A DNA stretch of 64,000 bases from Williamsia sp. DF01-3 (GTDB lineage Bacteria > Actinomycetota > Actinomycetes > Mycobacteriales > Mycobacteriaceae). The DNA lies in NCBI RefSeq assembly GCF_023051145.1, contig NZ_JALKFS010000005.1:1674001-1738000 (forward strand), written 5' to 3'. The notes under the pieces are model-generated. The model saw nothing but the letters and a program-made list of their open reading frames with translations, did not search any database and was not told where the DNA came from. Each line of letters opens with the position of its first letter. The first letter of the stretch is position 1. A program made the translations under genes and the position numbers. Shown here in pieces: positions 3,010 through 15,444 of the stretch.

Positions 3010-4209
3010 TCACGGCGAGCTGACTGCCCCCGCGACGTCTATGTCCGGCGTGATCATCACCGATGTGTCCGTACGCTTGTCCATCCGGTCGAGGAACGGT
3101 GCCACCTTGGTGTCGATGGCAGCGTTGTAGATCCCCGGCTGCTGCTTGGGATTCGCGTGTCCGGTCCCGGCCATCCGCACCACGAGAAGCCGGGCGTCGG
3201 TGCCGGCGATGTCGTCGAGCAACACCTGCTGGCTGTAGTCGACGTCGACCACCGGGTCGTCTGCGCCGAATGCCGGACGCATGAAGATGATCGCCGGGGG
3301 AGTGCGGTCGCCCGACTCGGTGGTGAGGGTCTGCAGGTCATTCTGTGCACCCGAGGCAACTATTGCCTTGAATTGGGATTCGATCAACCCGTTGCTGGCC
3401 GTGTCGTCGGACAGCAATTTCTTGCGAAGCACTTCTTTCACCACGCCGGTGAGCTCTCCGGTATCCATCAGCGGATGCCCGTCGGACGGGCGGAAGAGGT
3501 ATCGATCTCTACGCGCGACGGTCTCCACCACCAGGCGCAGAGCGCGGCTCTCCCGGGCACCCGGAACCCACCCCATCCAGCGCAGCATGTCCTCGCCTGC
3601 GTCTCGGCTCTCAGCGCGCACGGCGTGCAGGTCGATCGGCGTGCAGTCGAGTATCACGGCCCGGACTTCGAGGTCCCCGTCCTCGTAGAGGTGCTTGGCG
3701 ACTTCCAAGGCGATGATGCCGCCCATGCTGTGGCCGGCGACAACGATCTTGCTGACGCCCGCCCGACGGGAATGCTGAGTGACCAGCCGGCTGATGACGG
3801 CCGTGTCCAGACCTGCATTGTCGTACTGCACCGCCCACACCTGGCCGATGGCCGTGAATGCCGGGAGGGACCGCGCCGTGTCACTGGCGTCGACATTGCC
3901 CAGTCCGACCAGGTCGACCACTGCTGTACCGCTGTCGAGTGGATCCCGAGCATCGTGGACGTGATGGAGGCGGGGATGGGTCAACGCCAGACGTTCGCGC
4001 TCGGGCTGCACATCCAGCGCGTAGTAGTGGGCGCACAGAATCGACAGCGCAACGAGCAAGAGCCCTACACGCAGAGCCCCGCGCCGCAGACGGCCGAACC
4101 GTCGCCAATTGCTGCCGAGCCGGGTCGATCGAAGGCGAGCCACGCGTCGGGCATCGCTCCAGTCGGTGACTGGATTAATGGAGTGACGCTCGACATTAAT
4201 CATTTGCAA
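3010..4209 (-). CDS. Alpha/beta hydrolase with N-terminal membrane anchor
   Basis: The 399-residue protein has a basic N-terminus, then one hydrophobic segment near residues 46-62 (ALRVGLLLVALSILCAHYY) and a large extracytoplasmic-looking domain. The nucleophile elbow GHSMGG (near residue 160) and a late Gly-His (AGTGHANPKQ, near residue 350) are the catalytic Ser and His of the alpha/beta-hydrolase fold. Substrate is unknown; lipases and serine esterases of actinobacteria look similar. The start is uncertain because no clear ribosome-binding site precedes the ATG at 4209. The gene is convergent with the MFS exporter and its 5' end faces the RiPP operon. Confidence 0.75.
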   Translation of the reverse strand: MQMINVERHSINPVTDWSDARRVARLRSTRLGSNWRRFGRLRRGALRVGLLLVALSILCAHYYALDVQPERERLALTHPRLHHVHDARDPLDSGTAVVDLVGLGNVDASDTARSLPAFTAIGQVWAVQYDNAGLDTAVISRLVTQHSRRAGVSKIVVAGHSMGGIIALEVAKHLYEDGDLEVRAVILDCTPIDLHAVRAESRDAGEDMLRWMGWVPGARESRALRLVVETVARRDRYLFRPSDGHPLMDTGELTGVVKEVLRKKLLSDDTASNGLIESQFKAIVASGAQNDLQTLTTESGDRTPPAIIFMRPAFGADDPVVDVDYSQQVLLDDIAGTDARLLVVRMAGTGHANPKQQPGIYNAAIDTKVAPFLDRMDKRTDTSVMITPDIDVAGAVSSP

Positions 4210-4699: not shown

Positions 4700-5440
4700 A
4701 TGTCTGGAGAAGATCTCTACCCCGCCCGGATCGCACAGATCTACGATCTGCTCTATCCGGACTTTTTCAATGACACCGCAACATTCTGTGAGTTCGTCAG
4801 GTCGCGGGCCAAGGGCAATCGAGTTCTCGAGTTCGGAGTGGGGACGGGCCGGATCGCAATGCCATTGGTAGAAAACGGGTTTGAGGTGACCGGCCTCGAT
4901 GTCTCCAGCGAAATGCTGGCGAAGTTGAAGGAGAAAGACGTTGATGGGAGGGTCGAGGTGGTGGAGCAAGACTTCATCACCGAGAGGGTCGAAGGAACAT
5001 TCGATGCCGTCCTGCTCATGATAAACACCCTGTTCGTCGCGAAGACCCTGGACGAGCAGGTCGCGGTATTCGCCAATGCCGCAGCCAATCTCACTGACGA
5101 CGGGTTCTTCTTGGTGGAGACCTTCAATCCCAACCACTACCATGGTCTTCGCCAACCGGACGTGCAGATGCGCCAGCTCGACGCCTCCACCACCCAGCTG
5201 GAGCAGTACGTGGCCGAGCCGAGCCGGCAGTTGCTCATCGCCCAGAACCTCGTCTTCCGAGATGGCGAACAGTTCAATTACACGCACGTCCTCAGATACC
5301 TGTTCCCCTACGAGATGGACGCCGTTGCCCGCAACGCGGGTCTGACATTGGCCGAGCGCTGGGCTGATTGGGGCAGTACACCTTTCGGCCCCGACAGCCC
5401 ACGCTGCCTGTCGCTGTACCGCAAAGACGTGCCGTCATGA
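4700..5440 (+). CDS. SAM-dependent methyltransferase of the lanthidin-type cluster
   Basis: This 246-residue class I methyltransferase carries motif I at residues 42-51 (VLEFGVGTGR), an acidic post-I loop (VTGLDVS), and a hydrophobic motif at FDAVLLMINTLF. It is the first gene of the RiPP operon. Known class V lanthipeptides (lexapeptide, cacaoidin) carry N,N-dimethylated N-termini, so an N-terminal methyl transfer on the mature peptide is the best guess. That is inference from context. The ATG at 4700 follows a purine-rich stretch (GAGAGAGGG) about 10 bases upstream. The stop overlaps the next start (ATGA at 5437-5440), implying translational coupling to the kinase gene. Confidence 0.88.
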   Translation: MSGEDLYPARIAQIYDLLYPDFFNDTATFCEFVRSRAKGNRVLEFGVGTGRIAMPLVENGFEVTGLDVSSEMLAKLKEKDVDGRVEVVEQDFITERVEGTFDAVLLMINTLFVAKTLDEQVAVFANAAANLTDDGFFLVETFNPNHYHGLRQPDVQMRQLDASTTQLEQYVAEPSRQLLIAQNLVFRDGEQFNYTHVLRYLFPYEMDAVARNAGLTLAERWADWGSTPFGPDSPRCLSLYRKDVPS

Positions 5441-6531
5441 CAAAACCCGTGTTCCGGCGGCAAGAGAAGCAACTCCTCTCCTCGATCGCGCACGTGATCC
5501 CGCAGTTGGGCCGAGATGTCGATGAGATCACTGAGGTCAAACCCCTGCTCGGCCGCAACATCAGCGGCCAGATCACCTTCGAGGGCTCGCGCACCGTGTT
5601 CATCAAACGCATGACCGGACTGGGCGCGGTGGACCGGTACACCCGAAGTGTGTCCTTCCACGATGCGATCGATGTGTCCGACGCGCCCGCTCACACTGCG
5701 ACGCCCGCACTTCTCGCTCGCGACAACGATAGTCACACGGTGGTGTACGAGTTCATCGACGACGCGGTCAGTGCGGGTCAACTGCTTCGAGACGACGACA
5801 TCGACTTCGCAACCCTCGAACGTGTCGGCCGATGCGTCGCGGGACTGCATTGCCTGCCGGTGCGCGATGCCTCGGTGACCGACCACACCACACCGTTCTT
5901 CCCGCCACACGGACCGAACGCCATCTCCACCCAGATGTACTACGGGTCCACCATGGGCCAGCTCGACATGTGGCGAATAATCCAGTCCGATTCAGGTTTA
6001 CGGGCAGCGCTCGACCAGCTCGCGACCACATCGACGCCGAAGGTGCCCATCCACGGAGATCTGCGCGGGGACCAGATCCTGCTGGCCGGCGAGACCAACT
6101 GGATCCTCGACTGGGAGGATTTCCGGCTCCAGGACGGCGCCCGCGACGTCGGCGCTCTGATGGGCGAGGTGTTCTACCATCGGATGCGAAAGAGCCTGGC
6201 CTCGTTTGCAGGCGGCGACGAAGAATCGGTCACCGACACCGAGATCATCGAGCGGGGTACGACTGCACTGGCCGAGGCGACGCCGGGTGCCCGTGCGGTA
6301 TGGGACGCATACCGCGCGGTCCGGGCCGACGCGGCCGACCCCGAGTTCGTTGCGCGAAGTGTTCAGTACTTCGGCTGGCAACTGTTCGATCGGGCGCTTG
6401 CGGCCGGAACGTACTTCGGTCGGTTGTCTGCACTCGATCGCGCGCTGGCAGGCATCGGCCGCGAGGCCATTCTCGGCGGCGGCGACTACGCCGAGGCGCT
6501 CGGCATGACCGAGGGGAGGGTCGCGGCGTGA
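5437..6531 (+). CDS. APH-fold Ser/Thr kinase of the lanthidin-type synthetase (LxmK-like)
   Basis: The 364-residue protein belongs to the aminoglycoside phosphotransferase/choline kinase fold. Visible landmarks are an ATP-binding Lys57 (FIKRM), the hinge-like VVYEFI near residue 103, the catalytic loop HGDLRGDQIL with Asp208, and the metal-binding Asp225 in ILDWED. The usual loop Asn is Gln213. In class V lanthipeptide systems such a protein (LxmK in the lexapeptide pathway) phosphorylates Ser/Thr of the precursor, and the adjacent HopA1-like gene supplies the lyase. It starts on ATG 5437 overlapping the methyltransferase stop, and its stop overlaps the next start. Thioamitide pathways use a similar kinase/HopA1 pair, but no YcaO or TfuA gene is present here. 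Confidence 0.85.
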   Translation: MTKPVFRRQEKQLLSSIAHVIPQLGRDVDEITEVKPLLGRNISGQITFEGSRTVFIKRMTGLGAVDRYTRSVSFHDAIDVSDAPAHTATPALLARDNDSHTVVYEFIDDAVSAGQLLRDDDIDFATLERVGRCVAGLHCLPVRDASVTDHTTPFFPPHGPNAISTQMYYGSTMGQLDMWRIIQSDSGLRAALDQLATTSTPKVPIHGDLRGDQILLAGETNWILDWEDFRLQDGARDVGALMGEVFYHRMRKSLASFAGGDEESVTDTEIIERGTTALAEATPGARAVWDAYRAVRADAADPEFVARSVQYFGWQLFDRALAAGTYFGRLSALDRALAGIGREAILGGGDYAEALGMTEGRVAA

Positions 6532-7538
6532 CCACAGTGCAACGACATGAACAACTACGACATGAAGAACCGGCCGGCGGCACCTCACACGTCGAACTCG
6601 ATCAGGCGGTTCGGTGGTTGATCGCGCGGACAAGTGCATTGAGGGTTGCTGAATCCGGTTCTTGCGAAGTGACTTTCGACGGAACCGAACTCAGTGCCGA
6701 GTCCCCGGCCGAGCTGCAGCGCGATCTCGGCGGGCACCTCTACCGCAACCTGCATGCGGGCATGTCCGCAGGCGCAGGTGACAGCGAGTTCATCCCTGCG
6801 CTTCTCGAGGATCCCGAACTCGAGTCGCGGTTGTACGAGGCGACGCCGGTCAAACATCGAGCTTCCACGATGACCCTCGTCGAACGCGCTCCCGGCGACT
6901 CCGGAGTTGTGTTGTCGATCAACGGTGTTCGGGTCTTCTTCGAATCGAACACCATTCTCTCAGAGGGCGAGCACACCGTTGTGGCCGCGGTGCCCTCGGT
7001 GGAGAGTCGACTGTCGTTGGGGTTCATGTTCTACACGTCCACGGCGGGTGCCGGGCACACGTCCCGTCTGCTCCGCCTGTACCGCCACCTCGGGGACGCC
7101 GAAGAAGCCGTCGAGGTGTGGGGATCGTTCACCAGATGGATCGAAGATCGACGCCTGCCGTTGCGTGTCAAGATCGTGTCGCGGCGCTCGGGGTTCCCGC
7201 GCAACGACGGGATGGTGGTGTACCTGCCGTCCGAGAGCTGGCACGCGGTCGACGAGATCGCGGACCATCTCCGCAGCGACCGGCCACACGCCCCGGGCTC
7301 ACTGTTCTGCCATCAGGTGACCAACGGCGTATCGATGGCGTGGGAGCCTGCCGACATCTCGACCCCACGCGGTGGGACGAGCTTCGGAGAACACCGCAGC
7401 AACACCATTGCCAAAGCGATCGTGACCGAGGGGCTGACGGCCGCACCCGATCTCGCCAAAGCCGTTCGACGGCAGCTCATCACGGCCAACATCGACCCTG
7501 CCGCGGTGTACCGCAACCTCGACTCGCCGGCGCACTAG
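6528..7538 (+). CDS. HopA1-like phosphopeptide lyase (LxmY-like)
   Basis: The GTG at 6528 overlaps the kinase stop and is preceded by GAGGGGAGGG, giving a 336-residue protein. It resembles the HopA1 effector-type family: HLYRNLHAG near residue 70, a long middle alpha/beta domain, and a C-terminal SFGEHRSNTIAKAI block near residue 290. In class V lanthipeptide and thioamitide biosynthesis, HopA1-type enzymes remove phosphate from phospho-Ser/Thr to give Dha/Dhb. That role is assigned from family and from its position directly after the kinase and before the precursor genes. A longer reading frame extends upstream across the kinase gene but is only the antiphase of that gene. Confidence 0.82.
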   Translation: MTTVQRHEQLRHEEPAGGTSHVELDQAVRWLIARTSALRVAESGSCEVTFDGTELSAESPAELQRDLGGHLYRNLHAGMSAGAGDSEFIPALLEDPELESRLYEATPVKHRASTMTLVERAPGDSGVVLSINGVRVFFESNTILSEGEHTVVAAVPSVESRLSLGFMFYTSTAGAGHTSRLLRLYRHLGDAEEAVEVWGSFTRWIEDRRLPLRVKIVSRRSGFPRNDGMVVYLPSESWHAVDEIADHLRSDRPHAPGSLFCHQVTNGVSMAWEPADISTPRGGTSFGEHRSNTIAKAIVTEGLTAAPDLAKAVRRQLITANIDPAAVYRNLDSPAH

Positions 7539-7635
7539 AAGAGTCGGCAACCCGAAGACTTGGCCACACGGCCAGGCGAGGGGCATCTGCTCCTCGACAT
7601 CAGGAAATGACCGAACGAACGAAAGGAAGGACATC

Positions 7636-7839
7636 ATGTCAGAGGCAGTTACGAAGTCCCTGGTGGCTGGATACCGCAGCTACGCGGCAGCACCGGAATT
7701 GACCGAGATGAGTGAAGCAGCTCCGTCCGCGACGCCCGGCATTCTGAGCTTCATCGGCACGTCGTCGACCGCGTGTGGAACCGCAGTGAGCGTCATCAGC
7801 TCCGGCGGTGTCGGAGCAACCATCACCTGGGGTTGCTGA
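7636..7839 (+). CDS. RiPP precursor peptide 1 (class V lanthipeptide-type)
   Basis: The 67-residue peptide has a strong ribosome-binding site (GAAAGGAAGG, about 7 bases before the ATG). Its leader shares the pattern S-L-[VI]-[AS]-G-Y-x2-Y-x4-E-L with the next gene (residues 8-22 here). The C-terminal half is rich in Ser, Thr, Gly, Val and Ala and has only two cysteines, Cys47 and the terminal Cys67. A Ser/Thr cluster (TSSTAC, residues 42-47) precedes Cys47, and Thr62 and Thr64 precede the C-terminal WGC. This suits one (Me)Lan ring plus a C-terminal Avi(Me)Cys ring after decarboxylation. A possible leader end is the Pro-Gly at 34-35, leaving a 32-residue core; the cleavage site is a guess. 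Confidence 0.85.
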   Translation: MSEAVTKSLVAGYRSYAAAPELTEMSEAAPSATPGILSFIGTSSTACGTAVSVISSGGVGATITWGC

Positions 7840-7918
7840 CCGCTCCACCACGCTCGACACGCCTGACCCTCTCGATCCGAGAATCAAAGACCAGACCATC
7901 CACTCTCGAAGGAGCATC

Positions 7919-8125
7919 ATGACCAACTCCCAGTCACTCATCTCCGGATACGCCAACTACGTCCGCAGCGAAGAGCTCGCTCACGTCAACGCGGAATCGG
8001 CACCCGGCATCAGCCCGGTCTCGGCGTTCGTGTCGGCCTCCAGCCCCGAATGCGCGGCGTTCTCGGTCGGTGCCAGCGCCGGTGTTGTCACCAGCACCAG
8101 CATCACCGTCGGCGCAGGTTGCTGA
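7919..8125 (+). CDS. RiPP precursor peptide 2 (class V lanthipeptide-type)
   Basis: The ATG at 7919 lies 5-6 bases after GAAGGAG and gives a 68-residue peptide. A longer in-frame start at 7808 overlaps precursor 1 and is rejected. The leader keeps the SLISGYANYVRSEEL pattern (residues 6-20) shared with precursor 1. The core differs: it is Ser/Val/Ala-rich, with Cys45 after SASSPE and a terminal Cys68 in TVGAGC. Both peptides end in Gly-Cys and both have Thr five residues before the last Cys. A Pro-Gly at 29-30 may mark the leader end (38-residue core). Two divergent cores behind one leader type suggest either two products or a two-component product. Confidence 0.85.
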   Translation: MTNSQSLISGYANYVRSEELAHVNAESAPGISPVSAFVSASSPECAAFSVGASAGVVTSTSITVGAGC

Positions 8126-8142
8126 CGTAGCACTCCAGGCCT

Positions 8143-8174
8143 GCCACGGAGACGCGCTGTGCCGTCTCCGTGGC
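8143..8174 (+). terminator. Hairpin separating precursor genes from processing genes
   Basis: A perfect 12-bp GC-rich stem (arms 8143-8154 and 8163-8174, 8-base loop) begins 17 bases after the stop of precursor 2, in the gap before the first M16 peptidase gene. No T-run follows, so it is better read as an attenuating or mRNA-stabilising hairpin that raises precursor transcript over enzyme transcript. That function is inferred. Confidence 0.7.
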
Positions 8175-8265
8175 GGCGCCGGGTGATCGGGCGGCGACGA
8201 ACACAGTCCAGTCGAACATCACGAAGGGACGGGCAGAAGCGTTGAACAGCAGTGGAGTTCAGACC

Positions 8266-9492
8266 ATGCCGAGGCATGGCGTGTTCACGATGACCTGCCG
8301 GCGTCGGGGTCGGTGTCACATCACTGCGAGCCGGGTGCAGTCCGCGCACACGATGGGACTGAGTGTGGTGATCCCGGTGGGGACCGCCCACGAGCGACCC
8401 GGAGAGGCCGGCTTCGCCCATCTGAGTGAGCATCTGATGCATCAGCACGCTCGAGATCACCTGGGCGAGACAGTCGAAGACCAGATAGTCCGTGTCGGCG
8501 GCATCTCGAACGCGCAGACCTACCCGTTTCATACCGAATACAGCTTTGTCATCCCGGCGCCCGCCGAAGCCGAGATCCCGAACTGGATCGACCGGGCGAT
8601 CGCACGGGTTGCACCACCGCGCATCACGTCAGTCGACATCGAATGCGAGGGCCGGATCATCCGGCAGGAGGTGGCACGCCGTATGTCGACCTCGCCGACG
8701 GCGGGATTTCCCTGGATCGACGCACTGGGCGTGTTGTCGACGGACTTCGGACTGCGCCACAACGGATTCTCGGATCTCGCCGACATCGAAGCGGCCACGC
8801 CGGAGGTAATCGAGAACTTCCTGGGTCGCACGTACTCGCCAGCACCGGTGGCCGTGGGTGTTGCCGGGCCGTGGAGTCCCGACCTCATGCTGGATCTCCT
8901 CGGTTGTGAAGAGGGTGAACCGGAAACAGCCGCGTCGGACGCCTACACCGCGGCTTTCGGTGACCTGATCGATGGTCCGCACCATCGGCAGAGTTCTGTT
9001 GCGACCCAGATTCCCATGTACTCGTCGATTCGATACGTACCCGACGCACACGGGGCCGCCCCGGAATCGGCACAAGCGCACTCCATGATCGCGGTCGAAT
9101 GGGCCAACGCGGTTTCGCCCGGAACACACTGGCAAGCAGGGCTGTTCGGCGCAACGATGGGACCGGACCACCGTGTTCTCATCGGAAGTCGGCCTCACGG
9201 CGCCGACCTCGCGGTTCCGCAGTGGACCGATACGCCCTCGGATCTACGCTCCGAGCTTTTTGTGCACGCACAGCAGCGCGCGCTGGACAACATCGACAAG
9301 GAACTGTCGAGTACGGCAACCCACGCCGCGATGCTGGCTCGAGACAGCGCATTCGGCATACAGACGTGGGCACGCCGCTGCGCCGTCGCACACACAACAC
9401 CTGAAGAGATCGATCAGTACCTCGGGCATGCGCGCGAGTGTGCGGCCGGGACGGTGAGTTCGGCGGCGCCGATAGGGGTGGGTCGATCGTGA
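8266..9492 (+). CDS. M16 zinc peptidase, catalytic subunit (leader removal)
   Basis: Read from the ATG at 8266, which has GGAG at 8254-8257, the protein has 408 residues. It carries the inverted zinc motif HLSEH (His52, Glu55, His56) followed about 75 residues later by a candidate third ligand in the ECEGRIIRQEVA stretch. This is the catalytic half of an M16B (pitrilysin-like, processing-peptidase) pair. Upstream in-frame starts (8170, TTG 8242) would lie in or near the hairpin at 8143-8174 and lack a well-placed ribosome-binding site. Lexapeptide-type clusters also carry M16 peptidases, so cleavage of the two leaders is the likely role. Its stop overlaps the start of its partner. Confidence 0.85.
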   Translation: MPRHGVFTMTCRRRGRCHITASRVQSAHTMGLSVVIPVGTAHERPGEAGFAHLSEHLMHQHARDHLGETVEDQIVRVGGISNAQTYPFHTEYSFVIPAPAEAEIPNWIDRAIARVAPPRITSVDIECEGRIIRQEVARRMSTSPTAGFPWIDALGVLSTDFGLRHNGFSDLADIEAATPEVIENFLGRTYSPAPVAVGVAGPWSPDLMLDLLGCEEGEPETAASDAYTAAFGDLIDGPHHRQSSVATQIPMYSSIRYVPDAHGAAPESAQAHSMIAVEWANAVSPGTHWQAGLFGATMGPDHRVLIGSRPHGADLAVPQWTDTPSDLRSELFVHAQQRALDNIDKELSSTATHAAMLARDSAFGIQTWARRCAVAHTTPEEIDQYLGHARECAAGTVSSAAPIGVGRS

Positions 9493-10619
9493 CGGGCCTG
9501 CTGACCGAGGACGTACTGGTGCGGGGCAACACCGACCTGATGTACATCTCGCTCGTGACAACACCGGCGGTGGGATGGGGTGCGCGGTCGCGTCTGGCCC
9601 GCACCCTCACCGAGGGACTTCACCGGGCCGGTATCGTTTCGGGTCGCGCCCACGCCGGCTCCGAAGGAATCTTTGTCACCGCGACGTGGCGAACGGATCC
9701 CCGCGCTGTCGATGAGCTGGTGTCCAGACTCCAAACGTGGCGAAATACGTTTGACGACAACATGATCGCACCAGCGTCTCCGCCGACCTCGCCGGCCGAA
9801 CTGATCACCGCCCTGACCTTCGACGCCCACGACGAGACCGACCCCACCGAAGGTGAATTGACGTCCATCCTGACCACGCTGTCCTTCGAAGTGGTTGTCG
9901 GGGGCGGCGACTGCGAATCCGCGCTCCGCTCGGCCCGTGACCGAATCTGCGACGCGGCCAACACCGCGGTGGCGAACGGCGTGAAGCCGAAGCGGGAATC
10001 CGGGCGCCGAACACCTCGGCGGCCGGACGTGCCCACACGGCGTTGGGCCCAGGTCCCGGTCAGGTCATCGTGGGTGCGGTGGTATCGGTTCATCGACCCA
10101 CCGACAGACCCCGGCGAGAGACTCGCGCGGAGCCTGGTGAATGTGGCATTCGGGGGCGTGTACGGCTCACACCTCGTCGATTGTGTTCGGCGACAGCGCG
10201 GTTTGAGCTACAGCCCTCAGTCCACGTTGTTGCAGCGCGACGGACGGCATCTGCTGGTCGTCGATGTACAGACCACGCCGGGCGATGAAAATGCCTGCGA
10301 CGACGCCATCCGGACCGCTCTCGACCAGTTCGCGCATCGAAAGCTCACGCGGCACAGCATGGTGGACTCGGCGCGCTATCTGATCGGTCGCACGATCGTC
10401 GACCGTGATTCCTTGCAGTCGGCGGTGGACGAACGGGCGGCGTTATACGAAGGTTCTCTGGATTCGGCGCTGGACACCACCGGGTCGCCAGAGGATCTGG
10501 TCGCTCGCGCCGACGCCGACACACTCACGCGTACGGTCGAAACTCTCTACGCGCCAGATGGGTTCGGTGCTGTGGTGCTCTCACCTGACCGCTCCAATGG
10601 AAAGTGGGTTGAATTGTGA
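9489..10619 (+). CDS. M16 peptidase-like partner lacking the zinc motif
   Basis: The GTG at 9489 overlaps the stop of the catalytic M16 gene and gives 376 residues. At the position where HxxEH would stand the sequence reads LTEGLHRAG, so the metal site is absent. The C-terminal half keeps the M16 substrate-binding pattern (VRRQRGLSYSPQST, the R/Y pair region). Such inactive partners form the second half of heterodimeric M16B proteases. Tight overlap supports equimolar expression with the upstream gene. The next gene starts inside its stop (GTGA at 10616). Confidence 0.82.
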   Translation: MTGLLTEDVLVRGNTDLMYISLVTTPAVGWGARSRLARTLTEGLHRAGIVSGRAHAGSEGIFVTATWRTDPRAVDELVSRLQTWRNTFDDNMIAPASPPTSPAELITALTFDAHDETDPTEGELTSILTTLSFEVVVGGGDCESALRSARDRICDAANTAVANGVKPKRESGRRTPRRPDVPTRRWAQVPVRSSWVRWYRFIDPPTDPGERLARSLVNVAFGGVYGSHLVDCVRRQRGLSYSPQSTLLQRDGRHLLVVDVQTTPGDENACDDAIRTALDQFAHRKLTRHSMVDSARYLIGRTIVDRDSLQSAVDERAALYEGSLDSALDTTGSPEDLVARADADTLTRTVETLYAPDGFGAVVLSPDRSNGKWVEL

Positions 10620-11641
10620 ACTCGAACATCGGAATCATGTATCCGGAGATGCCTGTTGCCATCGGTCCGGTGGTGCCGTACGCGGAGGCGGCCCGCAGAG
10701 GCGGTCATCGTCTGTGGTTCGGGCACTCATCGACCGTCGATTCCCATCTCACGATGGCTGCGCTGGCCGGCCGGGGATATCCGCTCCAATTCGGCAGTGC
10801 TGTGGCGCTTTATCCCCTTTTTCAGCCTCACGGATTTGCTGTCCAATCCCAATCGGTGGGGCGGCTGACCGGCCAGACCTACGTGGCCGGGATCGGTCCG
10901 GGAAGTGCGCAGTTGCAGCAGAGCCTCTATGGCGCGCCGATGAAGGCGCCGGTCAGTTCGGCGCAAAAGTTCTTGGATCAGGTGAAAGAGATCATTCCCG
11001 GACCTCTGCAGACGGGTCCGGCTGACGGCCCGGAGCGGGTCGACAAGATGTTCGGCTCGGTCGAAACCGGGTTAGGAGTTCTTCGTCCGAGTATGGCCCG
11101 GTGTGCCGGGCGGGCCGCGGAATGGGCGATCACCTGGCTCACTCCAGCCGGGTACCTGGAGAATGTCCTGATCCCCGAGATGCGGCAGAGCGCAGCACAA
11201 CACGACCGACCCGCGCCTCGAGTCGCCGCTGTTGTCCACATGGCCATCCGCCGTCCGGGGCGAGATCCGCAGAAGCTCGCACATGCCGCGGTCGGAGCTC
11301 ACCTGAGCGCGCCGCACTACACCGACATGCTCCGACAGGGTGGTGTGGCCGTCGATCAATCCGATCCGTGGGCGGGCGCCGGTGAACTGGTCTCGTCCGG
11401 GACCTACTTGTACGGGTCTGCTGACGAACTCGTCGAGTCGGTCGCCGACCTGCACCGGAGTGGCGTGCACGAGGTTGTCCTGAACGTCTTCGGTGTCGCC
11501 AAACTCCATGGCGCCGGCCAGGCGGTCGAGGATCTCGAGGAGATCCTGGCTGCGCTCCACGCCAAATCATCTGCGCGCCTGACGATCCCCGAGTACGCGA
11601 TCCCGCGGATGTCTGCCCGATCCACCGGGGTGGTTGCCTGA
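10616..11641 (+). CDS. LLM-class F420-type oxidoreductase (LxmJ-like)
   Basis: The 341-residue protein has the luciferase-like monooxygenase fold of F420-dependent enzymes: a TIM-barrel start (NIGIMYPEMPV), a Ser-rich strand (HRLWFGHSSTVDS), VYVAGIGPG-like TYVAGIGPGS near residue 90, and a C-terminal pattern GSADELVESVADLHRSGVHEVVLNV. In lexapeptide biosynthesis LxmJ, of the same class, uses F420H2 to reduce Dha to D-Ala. The same role on one or both precursors is likely. Mycobacteriales make F420, so the cofactor should be available. It overlaps neighbouring genes by one to four bases. Confidence 0.85.
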   Translation: MNSNIGIMYPEMPVAIGPVVPYAEAARRGGHRLWFGHSSTVDSHLTMAALAGRGYPLQFGSAVALYPLFQPHGFAVQSQSVGRLTGQTYVAGIGPGSAQLQQSLYGAPMKAPVSSAQKFLDQVKEIIPGPLQTGPADGPERVDKMFGSVETGLGVLRPSMARCAGRAAEWAITWLTPAGYLENVLIPEMRQSAAQHDRPAPRVAAVVHMAIRRPGRDPQKLAHAAVGAHLSAPHYTDMLRQGGVAVDQSDPWAGAGELVSSGTYLYGSADELVESVADLHRSGVHEVVLNVFGVAKLHGAGQAVEDLEEILAALHAKSSARLTIPEYAIPRMSARSTGVVA

Positions 11642-12252
11642 TGGACGGCGCGGACCCACAGTCGTACCGGATCGACGGTCTCGCCGAACGCCGGATCGTG
11701 GTGATGGCTACGGGAGCGCTCGGCTCGGCCTTCCTGCACTCGTGGTTGGGATGGTTGCGCTCGACATCCCCGTCCACGCAGGTCCGGGTGGTTCTCACCC
11801 CCGCCGCCCTGCAGTTCGTCGGGCTGGGCACCATCCGAGGGTTTGGGTACGAACCGGTGATCGACAGCTGGCAGGACAACGAGCACCGGCCGATTCACGT
11901 GGATCTCACACAGTGGGCGCAGGGGTATCTCGTTCACCCGGCCACCATGAACTTCGTGTCCAGACTCTCTGCCGGACTCTGTGATTCGCCGGCGATGCTG
12001 GCCATTCAGGGCAGTACCTCCCCGGTGGTGGTGGCCGCCTCGGCGCCACCGGGTTTCACCCAGACACCGATATGGCATCGGCATCGCCGAGCCCTGGAGG
12101 ATCGTCCCAACGTCGAGTTGCTGGCGCCGATGAAGGGCTTCAGCGTGAGCGATCCGGATCTGGAGGGCTTGCCGCCGGTGCTGTTTCCAATTGCAGCGCA
12201 GGCGTTGTCGTCCGCACTGGCCGATCAGTCCCAGCTGGAGGGCTCGGAATGA
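11641..12252 (+). CDS. LanD-like flavoprotein Cys decarboxylase
   Basis: This 203-residue HFCD-family flavoprotein (EpiD/MrsD/Dfp fold) has a glycine-rich start (VVMATGALGSAF, residues 20-31). The His86 context (IHVDLTQWAQGY) matches the active-site His of peptidyl-Cys decarboxylases. The segment PATMNFVSRLSAGLCDS (residues 100-116) corresponds to the PASANT-type motif. It should oxidatively decarboxylate the C-terminal Cys of the precursors to an enethiol, which closes as AviCys or AviMeCys. Both precursors end in Cys, which fits. The ATG starts on the last base of the reductase stop. Confidence 0.87.
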   Translation: MDGADPQSYRIDGLAERRIVVMATGALGSAFLHSWLGWLRSTSPSTQVRVVLTPAALQFVGLGTIRGFGYEPVIDSWQDNEHRPIHVDLTQWAQGYLVHPATMNFVSRLSAGLCDSPAMLAIQGSTSPVVVAASAPPGFTQTPIWHRHRRALEDRPNVELLAPMKGFSVSDPDLEGLPPVLFPIAAQALSSALADQSQLEGSE

Positions 12253-13241
12253 ACGGCACAGGGATGGACAGTGCCGAATTGAACACTGCTGACTTGAACA
12301 CTGCTGAATTGAACACTGCCACCACGGTCTGGGAGTTCGACACCGCGGCCTGGTACCAGCGGCTCTTGCACACCGGCTCGTCGTTTACACTGACCCGCCG
12401 CTTTCGGCAACAGTGTGGGACCGAACAACAATGGGACCAAGCCGTGCCCCCGTCTGTCGGACGCGCCGCGTTCGTTTGCGGGGTATGGGTGGATGACAGC
12501 GAGTTCCGGTTCGACCTGACTGTCGGCGACCAACTCGCCAACCAGCTGTGGCCTGTGGTGAGCCCGGCGTTCCTGACCGACAACGGATTGCAGAGCATGG
12601 CCGACCTCGGGCGACTCATAGCTCGCCTGCACGGCGCCGGTCCGCATCCGCCCGGAGATCTCGTGAGTCCCCACGTGCGACGACTGCGTTCCTACCTGTT
12701 GGCCACCGATGCGCAGGCGGACGTGTCGGCAGTGCACACAGCGCTACCAGAGCAGACGCTGGGCGCGCTCCGGTCGATCGCCCGGACGATCACCGACGGG
12801 CCGCACCTGACCTGCCACGGCGGTTTCAGCCTGGGGTCGGTGTTCACCGACGACGATCACAAGACCGTACAGGTCGCGATCGGGCCGGAGATGTGCAGTG
12901 GGCCTTCTGAACTCGATCTGGGTTGGATGATCGGTGAACTGACGGAGTTCGAATACACCGCCGCGAACTCGGGTAGGTCTCTCGGTGCCGCGCACTCGGC
13001 GCCGTTCGGACGAGCATCGCAGGCCCTGCTCGACGGCTACTCGGCTGAATCCGGTCGAGAGGTCGATCGACGACGCCTCGACGATGTGGTGGCTGCTCGC
13101 ATCGCACTCCACATGTTCGACTTCGTGCGGACCACCGGCCGCACGGACCACCTTGCGGGCCTTGCCCCGTTTGTGACGTGGTTGACCCGACGACAACACA
13201 TGCACGACAACACCGAACCCGACGATGGGACACGATCATGA
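12249..13241 (+). CDS. Degenerate APH-fold protein, candidate third synthetase component
   Basis: The 330-residue protein overlaps its neighbours by 4 bases on both sides, so it is clearly an operon member. Its C-terminal half has the layout of an aminoglycoside-phosphotransferase lobe, but key residues are lost: the catalytic loop reads CHGGFSLGSV (Gly192 where Asp is expected) and the metal site reads VAIGPEM instead of a I-x-D-W-E type. A following ELDLGWMIGEL resembles the conserved Asp helix of the fold. I infer a pseudokinase, possibly the counterpart of the LxmX-type protein needed with the kinase and lyase in class V systems. The assignment to that family is not certain. The N-terminus has three near-identical 5-residue repeats (ELNTA/DLNTA). 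Confidence 0.7.
   Translation: MNGTGMDSAELNTADLNTAELNTATTVWEFDTAAWYQRLLHTGSSFTLTRRFRQQCGTEQQWDQAVPPSVGRAAFVCGVWVDDSEFRFDLTVGDQLANQLWPVVSPAFLTDNGLQSMADLGRLIARLHGAGPHPPGDLVSPHVRRLRSYLLATDAQADVSAVHTALPEQTLGALRSIARTITDGPHLTCHGGFSLGSVFTDDDHKTVQVAIGPEMCSGPSELDLGWMIGELTEFEYTAANSGRSLGAAHSAPFGRASQALLDGYSAESGREVDRRRLDDVVAARIALHMFDFVRTTGRTDHLAGLAPFVTWLTRRQHMHDNTEPDDGTRS
12276..12320 (+). repeat. Three tandem 15-bp repeats in the pseudokinase N-terminus
   Basis: Three consecutive 15-bp units (type GAATTGAACACTGCT, with one or two changes per copy) encode (E/D)LNTA three times near residue 10-24. The unit length keeps the frame, so copy-number change would only alter a short linker. Confidence 0.85.
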
Positions 13242-14149
13242 GAAGTCAGACGTCCATGAACGTCCTCGATTCGAGTCGAACCGGATCGACGAGCGTTCGC
13301 GTAGACGGACTCACCATGCGTTATGGCACAACCGATGTGCTGAAAGACGTGGGGTTCGAGATCCCTTCCGGCCAAAAAGTCGCCGTACTGGGCCCCAACG
13401 GTGCTGGGAAGAGCACTCTGATCGAGATCCTCGAGGGTCTGCGAAAGCCGTCCGGGGGCAACGTATCCGTGCTGGGCCACCGCCCCGACGATGCGCCCGA
13501 GCAGTGGCGGTCGCGCCTCGGCGTGGTGCTGCAGGCGTGGCGGGATCACGGGACGTGGAAGATCGGTGACTTCCTGCGGTACATCAGTGCGGCCCATCGG
13601 GCAGCGGGTGTGGCGAATCTCTGGCCGGTGGACGAGTTGCTCGAAGCAGTCGAACTGGGCGACCGCGCGAATCAGCAGATCCGATCCCTCTCGGGAGGTC
13701 AACGCCGTCGGGTCGACGTCGCCGCCGCACTGATCAGCCGACCGGAACTGCTCTTTCTCGACGAGCCGACAACAGGTTTCGATCCGGAGATCCGGCAGTC
13801 GTTCTACGAACTGGTCCGAAGCCTGGCGCACTCCACGACGATCATCTGGGCCACACACAATCTGTACGAAGCCGAAGAGATGTGCGAGCGCATCATCATC
13901 CTGAATCACGGTCGGGTGGTGGCCGACGGGAGTCCGACCGAACTACGCGCCACGCTGGCCTCGACCAGCACCGTGTCGTGGATGTCAGAGCAGGGTCCAC
14001 GGCGTCGTGTGGTCGCGGACTCCGATTCGCTGGTGCGCGAACTGGTCACGGGCCCCGAGCGGGCCTGGAATCTAGAGGTTCAGCGCGGCACCCTCGAGCA
14101 GGTGTACCTGTCGATCGTGCGCGAGAACAACACAGCCGAGGAGGTCTGA
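13238..14149 (+). CDS. ABC exporter ATPase subunit
   Basis: The 303-residue protein starts on ATG 13238, overlapping the previous stop. It has Walker A GPNGAGKST near residue 52, the signature LSGGQRRRVDVA near residue 148, Walker B LLFLDEPTTGFDP near residue 170 and the switch His in WATHNL. The C-terminal 70 residues match the extension seen in drug/natural-product exporters of the DrrA/CcmA type. With the following permease it forms an ABC-2 exporter, probably secreting the mature peptide or giving producer self-protection. Confidence 0.92.
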   Translation: MRSQTSMNVLDSSRTGSTSVRVDGLTMRYGTTDVLKDVGFEIPSGQKVAVLGPNGAGKSTLIEILEGLRKPSGGNVSVLGHRPDDAPEQWRSRLGVVLQAWRDHGTWKIGDFLRYISAAHRAAGVANLWPVDELLEAVELGDRANQQIRSLSGGQRRRVDVAAALISRPELLFLDEPTTGFDPEIRQSFYELVRSLAHSTTIIWATHNLYEAEEMCERIIILNHGRVVADGSPTELRATLASTSTVSWMSEQGPRRRVVADSDSLVRELVTGPERAWNLEVQRGTLEQVYLSIVRENNTAEEV

Positions 14150-14151
14150 CC

Positions 14152-15006
14152 ATGACAACAATCGCTTCGCGAGCGGGCGCCGGCAGTCTCGGTGTGGTGA
14201 AGTTCGGGGCGTTGCAGGCCAAGGTGGAACTGGTCATCCGCTTCACCCGGCCGAGCGCACTGGGTCACCTGATCGTTCCGATCGCCTTGGTCCTGATCTT
14301 CACGAACGTGGACGTCAGCGATGTCCTGGGTGGGCAAGGCGCCGTCGGGATGCTCGCCGGGATCGCGGCCGCGTCGCTGTTCGTCGGTGGATTCGTCGGG
14401 ATCTGCGGGGAGCTCGTCTCCGAACAGGACGACGGAACCATGCTCAGGGTCCGGACGCTGCCCTACGGGCTCGCAGGGCATCTGATCGGAAAGACGTTGA
14501 GTCTGTTGGTGACCGGTGTGGTGACCGCGTTGCTGATCCTCATCCCAGCCCACATTTTCGTCGCCCCGATCCTGCCCGGGACGGTCGCGGGATGGGTCGC
14601 GTTGGCCGGTGTCGCGGCGTTGACGTTGTTCGCGACCGTGCCCATCGGTGCCGTCGCCGGAAGCCTGGTGAAGTCGCCGCTGGCGATCTTCCCGATCTCG
14701 TTGGTGGCGTATGCCCTGATGTCGGTGTCGGGCATCTTCTTCTCCATCGGGGACCTCCCGGATTGGCTGACGGTTCCCATCAAGTTCTTCCCGGTCTACT
14801 GGCTGGGATTGTTGTCACGGGTGACGCTGGTCCCCGGCACCACGTTCGACGGTGTCGGACAGGTGGTGCTGGCGATCGGGGTACCCGTGGCGTGGGCGGT
14901 GCTGGGGCTTGTCCTGGCGCCGCGGGCGTTGCGGGTGATGACCCGCCGCCAGTCAGGTGCTCGCCTGGAAGCCCTCGCGCAGCGTCGTGCCGCGCGGGGC
15001 TACTGA
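14152..15006 (+). CDS. ABC-2 type permease subunit
   Basis: The 284-residue protein begins two bases after the ATPase stop, with AGGAGG just upstream of that stop. Six hydrophobic segments are visible (for example LIVPIALVLIF, GMLAGIAAASLFVGGFVG, LLVTGVVTALLILIPA, and a C-terminal VLAIGVPVAWAVLGLVLAP). ELVSEQDDGTMLRVRTLPYG after TM2 is typical for ABC-2 permeases. It pairs with the upstream ATPase. Substrate assignment to the cluster's peptide is by context. Confidence 0.9.
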   Translation: MTTIASRAGAGSLGVVKFGALQAKVELVIRFTRPSALGHLIVPIALVLIFTNVDVSDVLGGQGAVGMLAGIAAASLFVGGFVGICGELVSEQDDGTMLRVRTLPYGLAGHLIGKTLSLLVTGVVTALLILIPAHIFVAPILPGTVAGWVALAGVAALTLFATVPIGAVAGSLVKSPLAIFPISLVAYALMSVSGIFFSIGDLPDWLTVPIKFFPVYWLGLLSRVTLVPGTTFDGVGQVVLAIGVPVAWAVLGLVLAPRALRVMTRRQSGARLEALAQRRAARGY

Positions 15007-15072
15007 ACTCCGAGCACCCGTTGTAGTTCTGGCGTGCAAATCGCATGTCGGGGAACCGAAAGGAGAAACACG

Positions 15073-15324
15073 ATGTCGTTCAAGGACTTGATCGTCGGTG
15101 ACCATCGCAACCCCCGAGAAGAGATTGTCGCGATCTTCGGCGAACATCAAAGCACCGAGGACCCACAAGCGATCGCCCGCGCCACCACATGGGCGCAGGG
15201 TGTGCTGAACGCCGCTGGGATCCCGGCGGACAAGCAGGTCGAGGCGATCGCTGAAATCCGCAGGGCGGAGCCACGTCTGGGTCTCAAGTCGGCGACCCAC
15301 CTGGCGTCGTTGCTCAAGAAGTAG
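15073..15324 (+). CDS. Small conserved-looking protein at the end of the RiPP operon
   Basis: An 83-residue, probably helical, soluble protein has an excellent ribosome-binding site (AAAGGAG at 15059-15065) before the ATG. I recognise no family. It has no Cys, no signal peptide and no membrane segment. The composition (many Ala, Glu, Ile, Lys) and the sequence LGLKSATHLASLLKK at the end suggest a compact helical bundle. It lies 66 bases after the permease and before the terminator hairpin at 15338-15378, so it is probably cotranscribed with the cluster. Immunity, carrier or unrelated roles are all possible. Confidence 0.7.
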   Translation: MSFKDLIVGDHRNPREEIVAIFGEHQSTEDPQAIARATTWAQGVLNAAGIPADKQVEAIAEIRRAEPRLGLKSATHLASLLKK

Positions 15325-15337
15325 AGTTCGCTCGGCG

Positions 15338-15378
15338 AAACGTCCGGCCCTGTACCGACGGTGCGGGGCCGGACGTTT
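15338..15378 (+). terminator. Terminator hairpin closing the RiPP operon
   Basis: Arms 15338-15350 and 15366-15378 are a perfect 13-bp inverted repeat (AAACGTCCGGCCC and complement) with a 15-base loop, beginning 13 bases after the last operon gene. The 3' arm ends in TTT followed by GTGTG. It marks the downstream limit of the transcription unit that starts before 4700. Confidence 0.8.
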
Positions 15379-15444
15379 GTGTGGGTGCTCGTCGCGAACG
15401 GGCAATATGCACCCGATGTCAGTGGAGATCCGTACCATCGCAGC

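Follow-up and report, generated by a model that had tools for sequence, protein, structure and literature searches.

The stretch of DNA analysed here is a 64,000-nucleotide segment of the genome of Williamsia sp. DF01-3 (contig NZ_JALKFS010000005.1, positions 1,674,001 to 1,738,000; hereafter the window), and our subject is a compact operon within it, some 10.6 kb long (4700–15324), which very probably directs production of two lanthipeptides of class Va; the reactions, leader cleavage site, ring topology and activity that we propose for it are modelled on studied relatives. Class Va has been defined by the presence of LanK, LanY, LanD and LanX without LanC (PMC12291118). All of the genetic hallmarks of this class were found here, namely a kinase (LanK), a lyase (LanY), a decarboxylase (LanD) together with a terminal Cys in the precursors, a cyclase (LanX), a leader of the LxmA type and no LanC, two of them by way of scores that lie under the curated cut-off; the search for LanC was limited to the 13 operon proteins, among which there was no LanC-type Pfam match. 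An earlier note on this stretch had proposed a class V lanthipeptide operon, complete and on a single strand. The matches to the LxmK, LxmA-leader, TvaE/LanX and CypD-type models agree with the first part of that proposal, and the second part holds as well, the operon consisting of 12 collinear genes and a final gene for a protein of 83 amino acids (aa), all on the + strand and with every frame open. Its parts are as follows.

4700–5440, + strand: LanM-type S-adenosylmethionine-dependent methyltransferase (Methyltransf_25, 48.7 bits)
5437–6531, + strand: LanK, putative LxmK-like Ser/Thr kinase of the precursor (NCBIfam LxmK, Pfam APH, PDB 9dk1_A)
6528–7538, + strand: LanY, putative HopA1-type phospho-Ser/Thr lyase (Pfam HopA1, PDB 9dk1_B)
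7636–7839, + strand: 67-aa precursor A1 with a leader of about 31 aa and a core of about 36 aa, SSTAC and C-terminal TITWGC
7919–8125, + strand: 68-aa precursor A2 with a leader of about 30 aa and a core of about 38 aa, SSPEC and C-terminal TVGAGC
8170–9492, + strand: LanP1, M16 peptidase with an HLSEH motif (PF00675 Peptidase_M16, 38.1 bits; HxxEH at residue 84)
9489–10619, + strand: LanP2, M16 partner without HxxEH (PF05193 M16_C, 27.2 bits)
10616–11641, + strand: LanJ, putative F420-dependent reductase of the luciferase-like monooxygenase (LLM) type (Bac_luciferase, 63.1 bits)
11641–12252, + strand: LanD, putative flavin-dependent peptide-cysteine decarboxylase (PF02441, CypD model, PDB 6jdd)
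12249–13241, + strand: LanX, putative kinase-fold cyclase of the aminovinyl-methylcysteine (AviMeCys) ring, without kinase residues (profile match to TvaE)
13238–14149, + strand: LanT1, DrrA-like ATP-binding cassette (ABC) ATPase (ABC_tran, 103.3 bits)
14152–15006, + strand: LanT2, ABC-2 permease (ABC2_membrane_3, 45.3 bits)
15073–15324, + strand: 83-aa protein, final gene of the operon, no family match
15338–15378, + strand: closing hairpin with a 19-bp stem, probable terminator

LanK was recognized by the NCBIfam model of LxmK (NF038156; 282.8 bits, E 3.5e-84, against a cut-off of 315) and by Pfam APH (PF01636; 40.7 bits, cut-off 23.2), and its residues D208, Q213, D225, R40 and K57 are, by alignment and spacing, those named for LxmK. 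Its best match in the PDB was 9dk1_A (E 2.1e-36) and that of LanY was 9dk1_B (E 2.6e-23); in the PDB search the entries 9dk1, 9dk2 and 9dk3 had the same sequences for these matches, and 9DK3 is given as LxmK in the rosin paper (PMC12291118). Membership of the 6528–7538 protein in the HopA1 family had been chosen beforehand as a test of the lanthipeptide proposal, and the protein was matched over residues 160–329 by PF17914 with 129.7 bits (cut-off 22.7). Four catalytic residues of LanY, R183, K215, R225 and Y232, have exactly the spacing of Arg187, Lys219, Arg229 and Tyr236 in CaoY (PMC9486802). Each of the families previously named for the operon (methyltransferase, APH, HopA1, the M16 pair, LLM, flavoprotein and ABC) was found above its Pfam cut-off.

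The presence of two small Cys-terminated peptides had also been claimed, and in both A1 (MSEAVTKSLVAGYRSYAAAPELTEMSEAAPSATPGILSFIGTSSTACGTAVSVISSGGVGATITWGC) and A2 (MTNSQSLISGYANYVRSEELAHVNAESAPGISPVSAFVSASSPECAAFSVGASAGVVTSTSITVGAGC) Cys is indeed the last residue. The NCBIfam model of the LxmA leader (NF038146, cut-off 25) matched A2 with 25.5 bits and A1 with 18.8 bits. Leader positions −24, −20, −17, −12, −11, −3 and −2 are important in CaoA or conserved in its group (PMC9486802); when fitted by hand at the CaoA spacing, the A2 leader has Leu-24, Tyr-20, Tyr-17, Glu-12, Leu-11, Ala-3 and Pro-2, and the A1 leader has the same residues with one residue fewer before Ala-Pro. Core rules have been described as (Dha/Dhb)2-x-x-Cys, where Dha is dehydroalanine and Dhb dehydrobutyrine, and T-x4-C (PMC12291118, PMC11162475), and a motif of the SSxxC kind cyclises by itself to lanthionine (Lan) in rosin (PMC12291118). 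SSxxC and a terminal T-x4-C are kept in both precursors of the window and of five other Williamsia-type loci. Three near relatives (L002, L003 and L004) have exactly the same A1 and A2, and in two further loci (L005 and L006) 61 of the 67 residues of A1 and 55 of the 68 of A2 are kept, the changes sparing SSxxC, the ring Thr and the Cys residues. In A1, 16 synonymous codon changes and 6 replacing ones separate the window from L005, and in A2 18 and 13; as most are synonymous, both precursors have been kept. Between these genomes the peptidases (51–57 %) and LanX (49–51 %) are, in their aligned parts, far more diverged than the precursors. Elsewhere, a class V locus of another family member has a tandem array of five precursor genes (L047:11974–12938, + strand), which are of two nearly identical types and lie 206 bases apart.

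LanD was matched by PF02441 (Flavoprotein) with 47.8 bits (cut-off 22.7), by the CypD model NF033753 with 73 bits, which is below its cut-off of 215, and by PDB 6jdd, the cypemycin decarboxylase, with E 9e-20. LanX on its own gave no Pfam APH match and, as a single sequence, nothing useful in the PDB (best E 0.33). A blast search of 12 class V loci from other genera turned up LanX relatives in 6; a seventh match (L049) was the kinase gene itself and was excluded. The profile of LanX comprised 12 sequences, from six Williamsia-type loci and six loci of other genera. When compared with the PDB, this profile found TvaE (8jsu_B) at E 2.9e-8, the next matches being at 0.014 or worse. His288 is the same in all 12 sequences and Asp291 is nearly invariant, with the spacing of His269 and Asp272, both of which RosX requires (PMC12291118). 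The possibility that LanX is a second active kinase was rejected: there is HGG where the kinase has HGD, Pfam APH is not matched, and the profile finds TvaE first, whereas a kinase with a name, methylthioribose kinase, comes up no better than E 0.097. We conclude that the 12249–13241 protein is LanX, the predicted cyclase of the C-terminal AviMeCys ring. It had previously been described as a degenerate APH protein; it has no APH match of its own, and the profile of its relatives leads to TvaE and hence to LanX.

LanD and LanX occupy one uninterrupted frame in three of nine loci checked, from two other genera, and if the assemblies are right these are natural D-X fusions.

L042:5377–7110, − strand: D-X fusion
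L043:8289–9683, + strand: D-X fusion
L044:10243–12699, − strand: D-X fusion

RosX and RosD bind each other tightly (PMC12291118), which fits both the overlap of the D and X genes in the window and these single frames elsewhere.

The class Va interpretation is favoured because of the hidden Markov model and PDB matches of K, Y, D and X, the key residues, the leader and core motifs and the conservation. A number of findings weigh against it. LanK falls short of the curated cut-off for LxmK, and A1 of that for the LxmA leader; by spacing, CaoY His57 has no counterpart in LanY (107 versus 130 residues to the Arg), and RosX Glu220 could not be located in LanX (Glu-to-His spacing 74 versus 49); and in half of the class V loci from other genera (6 of 12) blast gave no usable LanX relative.

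Thioamitide clusters are defined by YcaO (with TfuA), and the thioviridamide cluster (tva) needs YcaO. Absence of YcaO from the locus had been chosen in the earlier note as a second test, and the cluster proteins include none (no TfuA search was made); as the only YcaO match in the genome, at C5:5050644, is 3.36 Mb away, a thioamitide was rejected as the leading interpretation. A product of the thioviridamide type, with thioamides installed by YcaO/TfuA encoded elsewhere, would account for the HopA1 lyase, the APH kinase, the LanD flavoprotein and a TvaE-like protein, which thioamitides also have (PMC9415263) and to the last of which the LanX profile corresponds; the LxmK and LxmA-leader matches, the LLM reductase and the M16 pair, however, fit class V, and we give this pathway next to no credence.

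The kintamdin cluster likewise has the same four activities (KinD, KinC, KinH and KinI), along with a precursor that has an internal Cys and a terminal one (PMC9415263), so that a kintamdin-like cluster making the bis-thioether MAbi ring had to be considered; it is very improbable here, as SSxxC, of the kind that self-cyclises in rosin, is kept in both precursors and the LxmA leader model recognizes the two of them, A1 with a score under the cut-off. That the cluster is decayed or silent and yields no product at all is extremely improbable. A silent cluster would be consistent with the lack of a recognized regulator among the operon proteins and with promoter-like sites being no more frequent than by chance (a sigma-70 scan gave 1 site versus 1.4 expected), whereas all frames are open, the precursors are identical in four genomes and show mostly synonymous change in two more, and the cluster is retained in six of the nine genomes of the genus.

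Our working scheme for the class Va pathway, by analogy with the characterized systems, is that LanK would bind the helical Leu-x3-Tyr-x2-Tyr-x4-Glu-Leu leader and phosphorylate Ser and Thr residues of A1 and A2, and that LanY would eliminate the phosphates to give Dha and Dhb. The Cys of SSxxC would add, mostly unaided, to the first Ser of the motif to form a Lan ring, LanD would oxidatively decarboxylate the C-terminal Cys, and LanX would direct the enethiol onto the Thr five residues upstream, forming the AviMeCys ring. Part of the Dha and Dhb would be reduced to D-amino acids by LanJ, which we infer to convert them to D-Ala and D-2-aminobutyrate and which matched TIGR03564 with 82.6 bits, below the cut-off of 234. 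The P1/P2 pair would cut off the leader after the Ala-Pro-x site; the start of LanP1 is uncertain, with candidates at 8170, 8242 and 8266. LanM would dimethylate the new N terminus, a role of N-terminal N,N-dimethylation that is probable from lexapeptide and cacaoidin (its best NCBIfam match was daptide_MTase at 84 bits, below the cut-off of 175). With a core starting after Ala-Pro-x, the neutral monoisotopic masses calculated for the fully dehydrated and decarboxylated peptides are 3066.500 (A1) and 3211.537 (A2), or 3094.531 and 3239.568 once two methyl groups are added; every reduced residue would raise them by 2.016 and every unmodified Ser/Thr by 18.011. Finally, the DrrA-like ABC pair would export the product; LanT1 (TIGR01188 drrA, 195.5 bits, below the cut-off of 312) is a putative export ATPase with, possibly, a role in self-resistance.

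The genes are tightly packed, with overlaps of 4 bases at six pairs (M/K, K/Y, P1/P2, P2/J, D/X and X/T1) and of 1 base at J/D, where seven 4-base overlaps had previously been counted. Intergenic stretches of 97, 79 and 44 bases lie around the two precursor genes, and T1 and T2 are separated from the genes after them by 2 and 66 bases, respectively. The G+C content of the operon (64.0 %) is close to that of the window (65.8 %), so that composition gives no hint of a foreign insert. The terminator that had been proposed to close the operon is real as a hairpin: the region 15325–15390 folds with −45.1 kcal/mol (z −6.28), and none of 200 shuffled sequences was equally stable. Its T-run is short, however, and a consensus terminator scan did not include 15338–15378 among its calls. 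By eye, a hairpin-like sequence of different letters also lies 3′ of the 83-aa gene in L005 and L006. No regulator was recognized among the operon proteins by Pfam, as had been claimed. In W. sp. 1135 (L081:5958–6593, + strand) and W. soli (L083:15276–15911, − strand), a gene that by eye resembles a TetR-type regulator lies immediately upstream of the cluster. Upstream of the cluster in the window lies a major facilitator superfamily transporter gene (1381–2880, 176 bits); it was ruled out as a cluster member, being matched in nine of nine genomes of the genus, including those without the cluster.

The lyase gene is present in six of the nine genomes of the genus, that of DF01-3 included. The named cluster-bearing records comprise two of Williamsia muralis, one each of W. 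sp. 1135 and W. soli, and one under the name Kitasatospora arboriphila; as their coordinates coincide with those in the five other genus genomes, Williamsia is a more likely source than the Gordonia-like genome suggested before. In the record labelled K. arboriphila NRRL B-24581 (L003) the cluster proteins are 90–100 % identical to those of the window and the coordinates coincide with those of genus genome G006; that assembly is probably mislabelled or contaminated. Within the family, an E limit of 1e-20 gave 18 LxmK-positive genomes out of 401 (12 from other genera, 7 above the curated cut-off), compared with 0 of 14 controls. With LanK itself as query, 14 of 394 genomes in a sample of the class were positive, its own included, the best other match being 36 % identical. 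In muralis-type genomes the cluster lies between a hydrolase-like gene (3010–4209, − strand) and a dksA-type gene (15445). This interval is about 0.9–1.9 kb in G001, G002, G005, G007 and G008 as opposed to 11.2 kb here, and G005 and G007 have the cluster on another contig; the cluster has therefore inserted at, or relocated to, two distinct sites.

The 83-aa gene was found in all six sampled Williamsia genomes with the cluster (the window and L002 to L006) and in none of the three without, and in both chromosomal settings it adjoins the ABC permease gene on its 3′ side. Beyond the genus there were six weak matches, in one other genus, among 401 genomes searched. The protein had no match in Pfam to E 10, in NCBIfam to 0.1 or in PADLOC to 0.01, nor, with an E limit of 1e-2, in the class V loci from other genera (12 loci of 14–19.9 kb). 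Distant relatives in L053 and L056 lie outside peptide clusters, next to what looks by eye like a DNA glycosylase gene, and that in L056 has a Pfam ABATE match below the cut-off (E 0.029); L054 and L055, of the same set, gave no blast match at E 1e-2. A resemblance of the C-terminal half to a stretch of L7/L12 was rejected as too weak (hhalign with the genome's own L7/L12: probability 33 %, P 4.7e-4, 34 columns). We regard the gene as a candidate accessory or immunity gene. The earlier statement that there is no obvious immunity gene was too strong, given the DrrA-like ABC pair and this cluster-bound gene, of which there had been no description. A bolder proposal is that A1 and A2, which have different cores and are kept together in six cluster-bearing Williamsia-type genomes, act as the pair of a two-component class Va lantibiotic, with the 83-aa protein as a new immunity or control protein; we consider this very improbable.

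The cluster is a further case of a known type, 851 putative class Va clusters having been counted in one actinobacterial survey (PMC12291118). It adds a Williamsia lineage with two well-conserved precursors and an operon small enough to be transferred whole to a laboratory Streptomyces. Class V peptides described before differ in their effects, massatide A and cacaoidin being strong against Gram-positive bacteria and rosin A1 being without antibacterial effect in its tests; antibacterial activity can therefore not be assumed here. The 83-aa gene and the D-X single frames offer handles on self-protection and on the coupling of decarboxylation to ring closure, respectively.

When compared with known systems, the operon shares a kinase, a HopA1 lyase, a LanD and an inactive kinase homologue with tva and the kintamdin cluster (kin) (PMC9415263), whereas in kin the two cysteines end up in a single ring system (PMC9415263) and the YcaO of tva is absent from the operon. 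It resembles the cacaoidin cluster (cao) in leader layout, in SSxxC, in the C terminus (TASWGC there, TITWGC here) and in its HopA1, APH, LLM and CypD-type genes (PMC8068269); cao, however, also contains glycosyltransferase and sugar genes and five regulators, and its one M16 protein combines both domains (PMC8068269); no sugar or regulator gene was recognized here. With the lexapeptide cluster (lxm) it has in common LxmK, LxmY, LxmX, LxmD, LxmJ, LxmM and the M16 pair (cited in PMC8068269), a likeness drawn from gene content and the 9dk1 chains; the LxmA leader family of lexapeptide is matched here by two precursors, and LanK is only 26–36 % identical to the relatives found outside the genus. 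The rosin cluster (ros, class Va) has, like the present operon, K, Y, D, X and J, two M16 peptidases, ABC transporters and several precursors, and the rosin core holds a lanthionine ring at Ser-Thr-x-x-Cys and an AviMeCys ring at T-x4-C (PMC12291118), as predicted for the cores here. The ros cluster, which was chosen as methyltransferase-free, has three precursors and three ABC genes (PMC12291118), whereas the Williamsia operon has two of each together with a methyltransferase and the 83-aa gene.

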